A stretch of 64,000 nucleotides of DNA from Parasedimentitalea huanghaiensis. GTDB lineage: Bacteria > Pseudomonadota > Alphaproteobacteria > Rhodobacterales > Rhodobacteraceae. The stretch spans positions 186,001 to 250,000 of the forward strand of contig NZ_WQLV01000002.1 in NCBI RefSeq assembly GCF_009753675.1. The letters run 5' to 3'. The first letter of the stretch is position 1, and each line of letters begins with the position of its first letter. Below the pieces are notes generated by a model that made no database searches, was not told the origin of the DNA, and saw only the letters and a list, made by a program, of their open reading frames with translations. The translations under genes were made by a program, and so were the position numbers. Shown piece by piece: positions 1 to 13,618 of this stretch.

Positions 1-140
1 AACAGGCTGGCACTGTGGCCCAGTTCAATTTCAGACGACGCGTAAAAAGCCACTGGCGAAAACCCCACCAACAGACCGATGCCAAGGGCAATACCGCCAG
101 CAACAGCCAGAACCCATTTTTCACCCATAGTATTTTTCAT
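1..140 (-). CDS. Partial membrane protein, possibly DUF4345-like (N-terminus only)
   Basis: The first 46 codons of a leftward gene are visible and the rest lies beyond the left edge. It starts at ATG 140, preceded by an AAAGGA ribosome-binding site about ten bases upstream. Residues 9-29 form a Gly/Leu/Val-rich transmembrane helix, followed by a short loop (SPVAFYASSEIELG). This helix-plus-loop start resembles small integral membrane proteins of the DUF4345 type, but too little is visible to assign the family firmly. The gene is divergent from the TetR regulator at 229. The shared 88-bp gap holds two dyad symmetries, so I infer that this gene is the regulator's likely target. Confidence 0.5.
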   Translation of the reverse strand, partial: MKNTMGEKWVLAVAGGIALGIGLLVGFSPVAFYASSEIELGHSASL

Positions 141-176
141 TCTGTCATTTTCCTTTTGCCAAAAAATTTTCCACAC

Positions 177-195
177 ACTTTACATTGTGTAAAGT
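177..195. promoter_or_regulatory. Putative TetR operator (perfect 8-bp inverted repeat)
   Basis: The sequence reads ACTTTACA-TTG-TGTAAAGT, a perfect dyad with 8-bp arms and a 3-bp centre. It lies in the gap between the divergent membrane gene and the TetR gene. TetR-family dimers usually bind short palindromes in the divergent promoter of their own gene, so this is the best operator candidate. The element also overlaps a possible TTTACA -35 box. Confidence 0.6.
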
Positions 196-220
196 TGACA
201 ATCATCGAAATATGGGTGAC

Positions 221-235
221 TTGACATCATGTCAA
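221..235. promoter_or_regulatory. Second dyad over the tetR start codon
   Basis: TTGACA-TCA-TGTCAA is a 6-bp inverted repeat that spans the ATG of the TetR gene at 229-231. It could be an autoregulatory operator or only a promoter-like TTGACA by chance. Its half-sites (TTGACA) differ from the upstream dyad (ACTTTACA), so the two may not bind the same protein. Confidence 0.3.
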
Positions 236-831
236 CCACACACACCAACACCAGAACCAAGATTTTACAGGCCACGCTTGATCTCTTGTTTTCCGAACCG
301 CCTGCAAAAACCCGCATGTCAGATGTTGCCACGCAGGCAGGCGTGTCTCGTCAAGCGGTCTATCTTCACTTCAAAAACCGGGCAGACTTGCTGATCGCTG
401 CAACCCATTTTCTCGACGAAAAACTGGACACCGATGCACGTCTCGCTGCCAGTCGCACCGCGCAGTCCGGGCGAGATCGGCTACAGGCATTTGTAACGGC
501 CTGGGGCAACTATATTCCCGAAATCCATCGGATTGCCAAAGTCCTTATATCCATGAGTGAGACGGACGAAGCAGCCGCCAGCGCATGGGAAAATCGTATG
601 CAGGATATGCGTGAAGGATGTGCAGCCGCAATCGACGCATTGAATGCCGATGGCACGCTCTCACCTGATTTCAACACCGAGGACGCCACCGACGTGCTAT
701 GGACGATGCTATCCGTCCACAACTGGGAGCACAGCACCGGCGCCTGCGGCTGGAGCCAGAAAAAGTATTTGACAATGCTAGCCCTCACCACCCAAAAATT
801 ATTCTATGCAGACCCGGTTAAGGCACCATAA
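229..831 (+). CDS. TetR/AcrR family transcriptional regulator
   Basis: This 200-residue protein is a normal length for TetR regulators. The N-terminal helix-turn-helix is clear at about residues 8-55, including MSDVATQAGVSRQAVYLHF and KNRADLL, the typical recognition-helix and tyrosine/phenylalanine pattern. The remaining residues are helical and diverge as usual for the ligand-binding and dimerisation domain, so the inducer cannot be read. The ATG at 229 has no strong Shine-Dalgarno but begins the conserved N-terminus. The gene diverges from the truncated membrane gene, with two dyads in between. I infer autoregulation and control of that neighbour. Confidence 0.85.
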   Translation: MSTTHTNTRTKILQATLDLLFSEPPAKTRMSDVATQAGVSRQAVYLHFKNRADLLIAATHFLDEKLDTDARLAASRTAQSGRDRLQAFVTAWGNYIPEIHRIAKVLISMSETDEAAASAWENRMQDMREGCAAAIDALNADGTLSPDFNTEDATDVLWTMLSVHNWEHSTGACGWSQKKYLTMLALTTQKLFYADPVKAP

Positions 832-9634: not shown

Positions 9635-11032
9635 ATGGCAAGCTATGACGTCATCATCATCGGTGCAGGCCCCGGCGGCTATGTATCGGCCATCCGCTGC
9701 GCCCAGCTGGGCCTGAAAACCGCCATCGTCGAGGGCCGCGAGACCCTGGGCGGCACCTGCCTCAACGTGGGCTGTATCCCCTCCAAGGCGCTGCTGCACG
9801 CAACCCACATGCTGCACGAAGCCGAGCACAACTTTGCCACCATGGGCCTAAAGGGCAAATCGCCTTCGGTCGACTGGAAGCAGATGAAGGCCTACAAGGA
9901 AGACGTCATCGGCCAGAACACTGTCGGCGTCGAATTCCTGATGAAGAAGAACAAGATCGACTGGCTGAAAGGCTGGGCCTCGATCCCTGCCGCCGGTCAG
10001 GTCAAGGTTGGTGACGATGTGCACGAGACCAAGAACATCGTGATCGCCTCGGGCTCGGTTGTCTCGTCGCTGCCAGGCGTCACCGTCGACAACGACGCTG
10101 GCGTTGTGGTCGACAGCACAGGTGCGCTGGACCTGCCTAAGGTGCCCAAGAAAATGACCGTTATTGGCGCAGGCGTCATCGGTCTGGAGCTGGGCTCGGT
10201 CTATGCCCGTCTGGGGGCTGAGGTCACCGTGGTCGAATACATGGACGCCGTCTGCCCCGGCATGGACAAAGATGTCCAGCGGGCCTTCAAGCGGATCCTG
10301 GAAAAGCAGGGCCTTAAATTCATCATGGGTGCTGCGGTTTCGGGCGTTGATGCGTCGAAAACCAAGGCCAAGGTGAAATACGCGCTGAAGAAGAAACCAG
10401 ACGAAGAACAGGTTCTGGACGCCGACGTGGTGCTGGTTGCCACAGGCCGCAAGCCATACTCTGACGGTCTGGGCCTGGACGCACTGGGCGTGAAAATGAC
10501 AGAGCGCGGCCAGATCGCCACCGATGCCCACTGGGCCACCAACGTGCCCGGCGTCTATGCCATCGGTGACGTGATCGAAGGCCCAATGCTGGCCCACAAG
10601 GCCGAAGACGAAGGCATGGCCGTCGCTGAAGTATTGGCAGGCAAACATGGCCACGTGAACTATGGCGTCATCCCCGGCGTGGTCTACACAACGCCTGAGG
10701 TTGCCACCGTCGGCCAGACCGAAGACGCGCTCAAGGCCGAGGGTCGCAAGCTGAAGATCGGCAAGTTCATGTTCATGGGCAACGGCCGCGCCAAGGCGGT
10801 TCACCAGGGTGAGGGCTTCGTGAAGCTGATCACCGACAAGGAAACCGACCGCGTCCTGGGCGCCGCCATCATCGGCCCCGGCGCTGGCGACATGATCCAC
10901 GAGATCTGTGTCGCGATGGAATTCGGCGCCTCCGCCGAAGACATCGCCCTAACCTGCCACGCCCACCCGACGTATTCCGAGGCGGTCCGTGAGGCAGCCC
11001 TGGCTTGCGGCGACGGCGCGATCCACAGCTAA
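9635..11032 (+). CDS. lpd: Dihydrolipoyl dehydrogenase (E3)
   Basis: This 465-residue FAD disulphide oxidoreductase reoxidises the dihydrolipoyl groups of the 2-oxoacid dehydrogenase complexes with NAD+. The FAD-binding GAGPGGY is at residues 10-16. The redox-active disulphide is C42-x4-C47 in [13 protein letters not shown]. The NAD-binding motif is [10 protein letters not shown], the second FAD contact is YAIGDV, and the catalytic HPTYSE is at 444-449. The start at 9635 has an AAAGGAG ribosome-binding site. The last codons of this gene ([12 protein letters not shown]) recur as a displaced fragment at 13545-13595, marking the end of an inserted segment. Confidence 0.97.
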
Positions 11033-11038
11033 GCTGTT
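10981..11038. repeat. lpd 3'-end direct repeat, left copy (att-like)
   Basis: This is the last 52 bp of lpd plus 6 bp downstream. It aligns without gaps to 13544-13601, with seven mismatches in 58, five of them in the first 13 positions. Conservation across the stop codon and into AGCTGTT suggests duplication of a genomic segment, not functional convergence. Such a gene-tail repeat is typical of integration sites used by mobile elements, though no integrase is visible. Confidence 0.75.
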
Positions 11039-11053
11039 GGTAGTGAAGAATAG

Positions 11054-11084
11054 GAAGGCCTCCCGATTTGGGGGGCCTTTTTTG
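11054..11084 (+). terminator. Rho-independent terminator after lpd
   Basis: The stem AAGGCCTCCC / GGGGGGCCTT is followed by a T run (TTTTTTG), beginning 21 bp after the lpd stop. This closes the suc-lpd transcript and separates it from the AT-richer genes downstream. Confidence 0.85.
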
Positions 11085-11465
11085 TTGTGGCAGTGTCAGC
11101 TTTTCTGGCGTGGGCGGTTTGGTACCGGATTACTCAATAAACTCCCAAAATACTCTCCGAAGCGTTTCAATTTTTCTGCGGCCAATGTCGGTTAAACAGG
11201 ACTAAGCCACCATTCGTTGAGCCTTGCGCAATGCCCCCTAAGCGGCCATCGCTGTTTGGCTCGTCGGCTCGAAAGCGGTCCTTCTCTGCGATGGCGAATA
11301 AGTGGGCTGTAAAAAGGGAAGCTGCCATTCCAGAAAAAAGTTAACCTTTACCTCATTCGAGAGAACCACACAGCTCGAAGGAAGTTTTTAAATGACCCAA
11401 AGATAGGCTTGGACATTGGGATCAGATCGCGGATAGGTTGTCCTGGAGAGAACATTGAGATTTTT
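11085..11465. other. Gap before the nucleotidyltransferase gene; no gene seen
   Basis: These 381 bp contain no supported gene. Near the end, GAAGGAAG (11378-11385) precedes ATG 11392, which opens only a four-codon frame (Met-Thr-Gln-Arg-stop). It could be a leader peptide or chance. The region is less GC-rich than lpd. A promoter for the next gene presumably lies here. Confidence 0.4.
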
Positions 11466-12056
11466 ATGCCCATTCCAGAATTTGCTGATCACGGTGGTTT
11501 GCCACCCTTCGTAAACGGTCATCCTACATTGCCAAACGCTCGCTCACCGTTTTCAGCGACCATGCAGGAAGTCGTAGAGCGTTTTTGTACGTCTGAACAC
11601 CGTGCTAAACTATTGAAGGGATTAAACGAATATAGAAAGCACCTCCACTCCGGCGGCTTTGTCAGTGGATCACAGTGGATTGATGGTAGTTTTGTCGAAG
11701 ATGTGGAGAGAACGCAGAAACGCAATCCCAACGATATCGATGTAGTGACCCTCTATAATAGGCCAATAAAGTATCAAGCCGACCCGTTATCATGGGCTGC
11801 GGACTATACAAACTACCTTCGGAACCAATTTTTTGATACACTTGCTATGAAGCCAGCCTATCTTTGTGACACGTACGATATCGATCTTGACGCCGGATCA
11901 AGGCCGCTTGTGAGGAACACAACGTACTGGTTTGGGCTGTTTTCCGATATGCGCGGAAGCGGTTCGAAGAAAGGAATTCTCGAAGTGCCGCTTGCGGTTG
12001 ATCCAATGGAGTTTACTGCGGTTGACCACGCGATTGGGAGTAGGTTCAGTGTCTGA
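11466..12056 (+). CDS. DUF6932-like nucleotidyltransferase-fold protein
   Basis: This encodes 196 residues from ATG 11466; TTG 11409 in frame would add 19 non-conserved residues. The N-terminus MPIPEFADHGGLPPF is the short leader I associate with DUF6932 proteins. The nucleotidyltransferase signature is visible: G74-S75 in WIDGSFVED, then D90-I-D92 in NPNDIDVV. A possible third acidic position lies in the CDTYDIDLD segment. These are the residues expected to bind metal and NTP in the polymerase-beta superfamily. The next gene overlaps its stop by eight bases, so the two form a tight translational unit. The segment is AT-richer than lpd. I infer an accessory two-gene module, perhaps toxin-antitoxin-like or defensive; this is not shown. 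Confidence 0.75.
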   Translation: MPIPEFADHGGLPPFVNGHPTLPNARSPFSATMQEVVERFCTSEHRAKLLKGLNEYRKHLHSGGFVSGSQWIDGSFVEDVERTQKRNPNDIDVVTLYNRPIKYQADPLSWAADYTNYLRNQFFDTLAMKPAYLCDTYDIDLDAGSRPLVRNTTYWFGLFSDMRGSGSKKGILEVPLAVDPMEFTAVDHAIGSRFSV

Positions 12057-12999
12057 TCTTCAGTCCATCACATCGTTAGAGAGGCAGAAAGCTGAACTGG
12101 AGGCTTTGGTAAGCGAGGCCAACGCGGATGGAGATGTGGTCGGGCGCTTGAACTTCGAGACTCGACATCGTGTTGTCTCCAAAGAACTGGAGGCACTCAG
12201 AAGCAAGGACGATCAAGTAGCTGAGGTTGCGCTTTTGTTTGATGGTGCACCAGTAGACGGCACGCGGACAATTGATGCAACTTTCGCGGCTCAGGCGCTG
12301 AGCTATTTCCAGTCGATAGTAACGACCTTATTCGCCTCAAGCCTTAAGGGCGAACTCGCTCAGCGGGGTAAGATCAAAGGCTCGGAATTGGCTGCACTGA
12401 ATATTCGTGGCGTTGCTACTGGCTCCTTTGGGTTTATCTTGGAAGAAAAGGACGCACGCCAGTCCAGCGCGGTAAAAACTACAGTAAGAGAGTCATTGGA
12501 AGAGGCCACCTTGTTGTTCGAGGAACTTACGCAGATTGAAGAAGACGATTTTCTCATTGATATCGATGAAATAAACCCACGTGTATTCAATGCGTTGGGT
12601 AGGTTTTTCAGTCACCTGGAAAAAAGTGAAGCGTCTCTTAAGGCGAATCTTCCAGACCGGCAAATGGTTTTTGATCGGGCTGGAATCGAACGTGCCTATC
12701 GGCGTATATCTGAGACCAATGTCAAAATTGACACCGTTGAATGGGTCGGGACGCTGGTTGGGCTTTCACCGATAAAGCGAACTTTCGATTTCAAGCGTGA
12801 CGGCGCTGACGAAATCGTATCCGGCAAATTCAGCCACCAAGTAAGCCAAGACTATCTGGAACGAATTGAAAGCCAAGACGGAATCACATTGGGCGAGCGG
12901 TTCCGCGCGAGCATCGAGATTGGTACGATCCGAAAGCCGGACGGAACCATTAGCGTCAGCTACACGGTTACAGACCTAGAAGAAATGCGGTCAGATTAA
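12049..12999 (+). CDS. Uncharacterised partner of the nucleotidyltransferase
   Basis: This encodes 316 residues from GTG 12049, with GGGAG about nine bases upstream inside the preceding gene. The frame is open further upstream, but that stretch codes the end of gene one in another frame. Residues 5-60 form a probable coiled coil (SLERQKAELEALVSEAN to ELEALRSKDD). A globular alpha/beta part follows with VALLFDGAPVDGTRTIDATFAAQAL and RGVATGSFGF. The C-terminal part is beta-rich (FDFKR to SVSYTVTDLEE). I recall similar proteins beside nucleotidyltransferase genes but know no function. No membrane segment is present. GC is low: block 12481-12540 has 27 of 60. Confidence 0.75.
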   Translation: MSDLQSITSLERQKAELEALVSEANADGDVVGRLNFETRHRVVSKELEALRSKDDQVAEVALLFDGAPVDGTRTIDATFAAQALSYFQSIVTTLFASSLKGELAQRGKIKGSELAALNIRGVATGSFGFILEEKDARQSSAVKTTVRESLEEATLLFEELTQIEEDDFLIDIDEINPRVFNALGRFFSHLEKSEASLKANLPDRQMVFDRAGIERAYRRISETNVKIDTVEWVGTLVGLSPIKRTFDFKRDGADEIVSGKFSHQVSQDYLERIESQDGITLGERFRASIEIGTIRKPDGTISVSYTVTDLEEMRSD

Positions 13000-13339
13000 C
13001 CACCGCTTTGTGTAGCTATTGGCGTTTGCTATTCCAGATAGGTATTCAATGACTTGTGCGCCGGTCCTCAGGCCTTTTGCTCGCCGCTAAAGTTCGCAAT
13101 CGCGTGCCACATCGCTGCAACACCGATAGTCGCTGAAAATCGGTTCTGGGCCGTCTCTTCGGCTTTGCAAAGTCTGTTTCCTGCGTATAGCTGCCCTTGG
13201 GGCATCGCACAGTATTGGTAGGATTGGCCTCAAACCTGACCTTCGCCACCAAAGCCCTCTCGGCGTCCCCCCAAATTCCCAATTGACCGACGCCCCAACT
13301 TCCCACACCATCACAACATGCAAAAACAGGAGGAAGAAC
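13000..13339. other. Gap between the partner gene and the Cys-rich peptide; no gene seen
   Basis: These 340 bp have no supported ORF; the reading frames on the minus strand lack start signals and family likeness. The last 20 bases hold the AGGAGGA ribosome-binding site of the next small gene. Part of it may be decayed insertion material. Confidence 0.35.
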
Positions 13340-13531
13340 ATGGCTACGTACCGCTGTGGAGCTTGCGGCATGGGTGTGAATGCGACCTGCGCCGACTGTA
13401 ACGAGCCGCTCGTCAACGACACATTGGAGCTGGATGATGGCAGCAAGGTGCAGATCTCGCGCTGCCCCAAATGCGAAGGCAAGATCAAATCGCCCCTGTG
13501 CTGCGGGCAGGATATGACCTGCGAGACCTGA
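13340..13531 (+). CDS. 63-residue cysteine-rich zinc-ribbon peptide
   Basis: ATG 13340 follows a strong AGGAGGA ribosome-binding site. The product has nine cysteines in 63 residues: C6xxC9, C17xxC20, C42xxC45, C54-C55 and C61. CxxC pairs on short beta turns indicate one or two zinc ribbons. An acidic stretch (ELDDGSKVQISRCPKCEGK) lies in the middle. It has no signal peptide. It is the last gene before the displaced lpd tail, so it either belongs to the inserted segment or was the original neighbour of lpd. Function unknown. Confidence 0.8.
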   Translation: MATYRCGACGMGVNATCADCNEPLVNDTLELDDGSKVQISRCPKCEGKIKSPLCCGQDMTCET

Positions 13532-13543
13532 CACCTGATCCGG

Positions 13544-13601
13544 GGCGGTGTGCAAAGCAGCCCTGGCCTGCGGCGACGGTGCGATCCACAGCTAAGCTGT
13601 T
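13544..13601 (+). pseudogene. Displaced lpd 3'-end fragment (right copy of direct repeat)
   Basis: The frame from 13545 reads [16 protein letters not shown] then stop (13593-13595), matching the true lpd C-terminus [20 protein letters not shown] at 13536 stops the frame upstream, so only this tail remains. At the DNA level it matches 10981-11038 with seven mismatches. A rho-independent terminator follows at 13619. The simplest reading is that this was the original lpd terminus, displaced when a segment inserted and restored the gene, or that it is a remnant of a second lpd copy. Confidence 0.75.
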
Positions 13602-13618
13602 AAGACAGACGCGAACCA

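Follow-up and report, generated by a model that had tools for sequence, protein, structure and literature searches.

The closest described relative of the gene pair analysed here is PDC-M63, a two-gene system that PADLOC lists as a candidate only. Such a pair has been put to a published test only once, in E. coli NILS69: when PDC-M63AB was deleted from a prophage there, infection by 10 virulent phages was unchanged (PMC12409345). In lambda, the rexAB genes follow immediately downstream of CI; in prophage P1 of P. putida they lie close to it, and PP_3897/PP_3898 sit between CI and rexAB (PMC12894663). Among E. coli systems, the validated PD-lambda-2 encodes an Xre-peptidase protein that is toxic when overexpressed, and the DUF6575 domain occurs in one experimentally validated anti-phage system (PMC9519451).

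The pair lies in a 64,000-nucleotide stretch of a rhodobacteral genome (G000:C23:186001-250000), which we call the window, and its features are collected in Table 1. Both genes are intact and co-directional with A first, and they overlap by 8 bp, as the original prediction had noted. A GGGAG motif stands ~8 nt upstream of the GTG of B, and together with the overlap it suggests that the two genes may be translationally coupled. The identical 8-bp overlap is found in most close rhodobacteral relatives (L140-L147), and a 4- or 8-bp overlap is the commonest spacing. The pair was also said to lie in an AT-richer segment, which the base composition bears out: A and B together have 49.2% GC compared to 56.0% for the window, the fourth lowest value among 250 windows of the same size.

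Table 1. Coordinates of the gene pair, the protein regions of B and the surrounding insert (nucleotide positions are those of the window; residues are those of B).
Feature	Position	Strand	Description	Basis
Left lpd-tail copy	10976..11038	+	functional lpd 3' end	direct repeat D1
Insert	11039..13601	.	~2.56 kb, A + B + zinc-ribbon gene	G301 empty site; ORF list
Gene A	11466..12056	+	DUF6932 minimal nucleotidyltransferase, 196 aa, ATG start	PF22014
A/B overlap	12049..12056	+	8 bp	sequence
Gene B	12049..12999	+	partner of A, 316 aa, GTG start	phrog_18731
B helical hairpin	residues 3-54		two long predicted helices, 3-26 and 30-54	
B alpha/beta domain	residues about 56-222			AF2 model
B OB fold	residues about 223-312			Foldseek matches over ~88-100 columns
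Zinc-ribbon protein	13340..13531	+	63 aa, cysteine-rich	insert passenger, outside the A-B system
Right lpd-tail copy	13539..13601	+	relic of ancestral lpd end	direct repeat D1; G301 empty site

Gene A encodes a DUF6932 protein (PF22014, E = 2.6e-33) that also matches phrog_9194 (E = 2.9e-26) and PADLOC PDC-M63A (E = 2e-15, residues 34-175). A weak match of A to polyphosphate kinase 2 lay far below cut-offs, had no support from the fold search and was set aside as chance. The GS...DxD signature is present at the predicted residues, and the active site is retained in homologues: G74, S75, D90 and D92 are found in 106/106 aligned relatives, as is K169-G170, and a third acidic residue, D135, is found in 103/106 (some plasmid-record rows were omitted from the structure-model alignments). 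For the AF2 model of A (pLDDT 96.8), the top Foldseek match was an MNT antitoxin with a weak E-value of 1.8e-2 (the MNT antitoxins matched are 7ae2_B and 8xeh_E), followed by further weak matches to a small archaeal NTase, poly(A) polymerase, FAM46 and CdnC. The best Foldseek E-values are only ~0.01-0.02, whether for A or for the OB region of B; these are weak scores, although the matches agree in kind. On the strength of its model and alignment, A is predicted to be a nucleotidyltransferase-fold enzyme with intact active-site residues.

Gene B matches phrog_18731 (E = 4e-32), with no credible match in Pfam and none in PADLOC at E<1. Pfam and NCBIfam models of betaine-aldehyde dehydrogenase gave matches at E = 2e-6 to 3e-3, which we rejected as chance because they cover only the coiled-coil and early region, lie far below cut-offs and receive no support from the fold search. 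Such chance matches to betaine-aldehyde dehydrogenase or polyphosphate kinase 2 explain the majority of 'relatives' with E>1e-5. The AF2 model of B (pLDDT 92.9) begins with a helical hairpin, continues as an alpha/beta domain and ends in a beta barrel at the C-terminus, in agreement with the coiled-coil start, central motifs and beta-rich end that had been described from the sequence. The motifs VALLFDG and GSFGF are conserved, and G66, V69, S126 and G128 are invariant.

Nearly all confident PDB Foldseek matches of B are OB folds, including Rim1 (mitochondrial SSB), Teb1, Stn1/Ten1, the anticodon-binding domain of LysRS, cold-shock proteins and PriB; the placement of this fold within B was deduced from match lengths and secondary structure. 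From these structural matches, B probably binds nucleic acid via its OB fold. In the alignment of relatives, none of the acidic, His or Lys positions is invariant, so B looks like a binding protein and not an enzyme. By model and hydropathy neither protein is membrane-spanning, and both are soluble. Among viral structures, the B model is matched best by a DUF6575 protein (E = 7.8e-13 over 299 columns in Foldseek, with a TM-score of only 0.39); we found no sequence-level link between the two, and DUF6575 proteins are longer than B.

We then placed the pair relative to PDC-M63. In the divergent pairs L220, L235 and L236, both genes are recognised by the PDC-M63 models (PDC-M63B at up to 1e-154), and as in PDC-M63 the two genes of the window are adjacent on the same strand with A first. 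The PDC-M63B models matched neither the B of the window nor any of the 9 B relatives tested, so PADLOC would not call the window pair. At the profile level, the B family of the window is a full-length homologue of PDC-M63B (hhalign probability 97.7, E = 2.3e-12, 287 columns). Since A matches PDC-M63A and B is linked to PDC-M63B only by profile-profile comparison, the window pair is a distant, uncalled branch of PDC-M63, with an A that is ~45 aa longer. The pair had been proposed as a candidate uncharacterised system; this holds only in part, as its relatives are listed as candidate PDC-M63 and one PDC-M63AB pair was the subject of the negative deletion study.

There is strong evidence that A and B form one system, as first proposed, and each check that had been set to refute this (frequent solitary genes, no link to islands, loss of active-site residues) came out in its favour. 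With A as bait, B is the immediate downstream ORF on the same strand in all 68 IMG/VR loci (including L084, in which B is frameshifted, and L127, in which it is cut by the contig end), and a B ORF lies beside A in 78/80 loci from named genomes, the remaining two (L145 and L163) being at contig ends. B is shortened or degenerate in four of the named-genome loci (L168, L191, L199 and L216). The 80 loci span Alpha-, Beta- and Gammaproteobacteria, Planctomycetota, Acidobacteriota, Bacteroidales and others, and more than 140 loci with both genes in the same order put the pairing beyond chance. Secondly, solitary genes are rare. DUF6932 is patchy, occurring at 18 places in 17/398 genomes of the phylum: at 13 of these loci A is accompanied by B, from one or other branch; at one more (L232) B is truncated, and the remaining four have a different partner. 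Conversely, the B search gave 11 strong matches, 10 of them at loci with A, while the B of G459 (L249) lacks an upstream A; all four plasmids likewise have B, as a match or by the family HMM. Thirdly, the two families co-evolve, their distances being correlated across 114 pairs with a Mantel r of 0.80 (shuffle maximum, 0.10). Lastly, a comparison of G257 with G265 gave dN/dS of 0.033/0.313 for A and 0.023/0.407 for B, values that place both genes under purifying selection. The pair is nearly obligate. At L249, the intact lone B adjoins an ORF that resembles a restriction enzyme by eye.

We lean, if only slightly, towards reading A-B as an operon-coded, two-component superinfection exclusion or abortive infection module of toxin-antitoxin type that is carried by mobile elements. 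As in the original prediction, the enzyme would modify RNA or protein and its partner would regulate or sense. B would restrain A through its hairpin and alpha/beta domain, and its OB domain would recognise single-stranded nucleic acid or structured RNA. Phage replication may then alter the ligand of B, or B may present its RNA to A; A, released or directed in this way, would transfer nucleotides to a protein or to the 3' end of an RNA such as a tRNA, which would halt growth or the production of phage. That the target of A is an RNA end is a conceivable but doubtful part of this scheme. The exclusion or abortive infection reading is favoured by the strict pairing, co-evolution and purifying selection of the two genes, by the intact active site of A and by the predicted OB fold of B. 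It is weakened by the negative PDC-M63AB deletion, by the many A-B copies that sit among ordinary chromosomal genes and by the weak Foldseek scores.

The comparison with MNT/HEPN modules, made before from the sequence, applies to the fold of A and not to its partner. Like those modules, the pair is a tight two-gene operon with a small NTase carrying GS and DxD, and A resembles MNT antitoxins. This resemblance, the overlap of the genes, their presence on plasmids and prophages and the negative defence test of PDC-M63AB would all suit a HEPN/MNT-style addiction module run in reverse, in which the antitoxin A nucleotidylates and silences a toxin B and the benefit is maintenance of the element instead of defence. 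We nevertheless consider this unlikely: B has an OB/alpha-beta fold and not a HEPN fold, its alignment lacks the conserved His of the HEPN RX4-6H motif (for which reason we rejected B as a HEPN toxin) and has no acidic, His or Lys position so strictly kept that it could serve as a toxin active site, and the truncated B beside an intact A at L232, L168 and L191 misfits an A that solely silences B.

The genomic neighbourhood bears on both the exclusion reading and a further alternative. Of the viral loci, 36/68 (21/49 after dereplication) have a same-strand gene for a CI-like repressor upstream of the pair, usually at less than 600 bp. Among 69 upstream-neighbour proteins, Pfam matches include HTH_3 (21), peptidase S24 (15) and CI repressor (10), with Cro and YdaS also present; downstream neighbours in viruses include N peptide and integrases, and E. 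coli phage PhiR30_1 has the order cI-A-B. The pair therefore resembles RexAB, as two genes behind a CI repressor and present in the lysogen, of which one probably binds nucleic acid. It differs in that A-B has no four-helix membrane partner and A is an NTase enzyme. B itself was rejected as a RexA, which was absent from the PDB profile search and from the top 50 fold matches. The position of the pair in the lysogeny module beside CI, Cro and N would also fit a control factor of the CI operon, by which the pair modifies host RNA or protein for the benefit of the prophage (lysogeny stability or induction timing). This is less likely still, as the pair is not confined to prophages but also occurs on plasmids and, with CBASS or restriction genes, in defence islands, and the insert in the window carries no phage gene at all (ORF list) and has no CI upstream, the pair sitting behind lpd.

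Outside phages, the neighbours include defence genes. A pair that is 77% identical to that of the window (G265) adjoins a CBASS operon with a CapV patatin (E = 3e-37) and a CD-NTase (E = 6e-58), a Shimia pair adjoins a TIR-like ORF together with genes for type I restriction, and plasmid copies adjoin either an integrase with restriction genes or ThiF/multiubiquitin genes. Retron/DRT (reverse-transcriptase), Gabija and other defence models match immediate neighbours elsewhere, but many ordinary genes are found there as well. The expected link to islands and phages is thus clear from neighbouring genes and is to be read as context, not as an enrichment value. Beside the CBASS CD-NTases, A is small (about 196 aa compared to ~400 aa) and its CdnC Foldseek match is weak (E = 0.23); by the features tested A-B is distinct from RexAB and HEPN/MNT, and probably from CBASS. 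Taken over all loci, A-B is a mobile cassette on temperate phages, plasmids and chromosomal islands. A horizontally spread housekeeping complex for RNA modification (in tRNA upkeep or RNA repair, for example) that takes no part in conflict, which the intact NTase, the OB-fold partner and the copies among core genes would allow, is very improbable given the patchy occurrence of PF22014, the mobile context and the presence on phages.

In the window, the mobility of the cassette can be traced at the lpd gene. The lpd-tail repeat that was reported to bound the segment is present as a direct repeat with 87% identity over 63 nt and a 45-nt core in which 43/45 positions are identical; the ancestral terminator lies behind the right copy, and the left copy has a terminator of its own. 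A genome of the same genus (G301) provides the exact empty site, with a single tail copy: its sequence follows lpd to 11038 and continues from ~13545-13602 onward, and past the junction it is ~93% identical to the right flank of the window. The duplication and the empty site show that ~2.56 kb was gained as one piece at the end of lpd, and A-B would have entered as a small passenger of this insert. No integrase or other recombinase is among the ORFs of the insert, and no tRNA, Rfam family or sigma-70-like promoter was found in it. The repeat may have an att-like role.

Sites at the lpd end were compared between the window (11033-13601), L061 (1720-3537) and L028. In another genome of the genus (G302), the first 160 bp beyond lpd are common with the window and are followed by other cargo. 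With A-B and the zinc ribbon in the window genome (G000), other cargo in G302 and none in G301, the lpd 3' end is a variable insertion spot. The gene after the common 160 bp of G302 is DUF1254-like, as named by eye. A second lpd-tail copy is also seen close behind lpd in another rhodobacteral genome (L042, G011), hinting that tail duplication recurs at this site. The zinc-ribbon protein is 100% identical in G302 (at a contig end and without A-B) and 83% identical in G005, and its gene is absent from G301 and most relatives.

With the CI-linked position, the defence-gene neighbours and the mobility seen at the empty site added to the evidence from pairing, we return to the exclusion or abortive infection module as the favoured reading. 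If it is true, A-B represents a large family of two-gene systems for phage exclusion. This family would escape current defence-finding tools, whose model for the partner does not extend to this branch of B. The intact chemistry of A and the predicted nucleic-acid-binding fold of B would make trigger and target directly testable, and the position behind CI offers a natural test bed in lysogens with and without the pair. The PDC-M63AB deletion was tried on virulent phages only, and the CI-linked placement may explain its negative result.

A third branch of DUF6932 extends this picture. At four loci (L222, L226, L227 and L233), the DUF6932 gene overlaps, in place of B, a partner with a coiled coil, an XRE helix-turn-helix and an ImmA/IrrE-type domain, whose metallopeptidase family was assigned by eye and which carries a HELxH motif. 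This looks like a different toxin-antitoxin-type pair that uses the same enzyme, and its likeness to PD-lambda-2 would, though only by analogy, make it plausible that the DUF6932 families are toxin-antitoxin-like. A common N-terminal hairpin for docking to A in B and in the XRE-ImmA/IrrE partners was considered and rejected (helical by eye, hhalign probability 0.4). We raise, tentatively and with more reserve than for the exclusion module itself, the idea of a widespread conflict system of a new type, in which an OB-fold protein that senses nucleic acid would control a minimal NTase, both being encoded at the rexAB position of temperate phages. Given the third branch, the enzyme would then be a component that can be combined with various sensors.

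Two variant forms of B were also observed. In two Duganella species (L168:10548-11120 and L191:10515-11099), B ends before the OB domain and lacks GSFGF beside an intact A, which reflects either decay or a real short form. In L066:8771-9664, the one relative of B that clearly contains transmembrane regions, two hydrophobic, membrane-like segments stand in place of the OB part, a possible effector swap.
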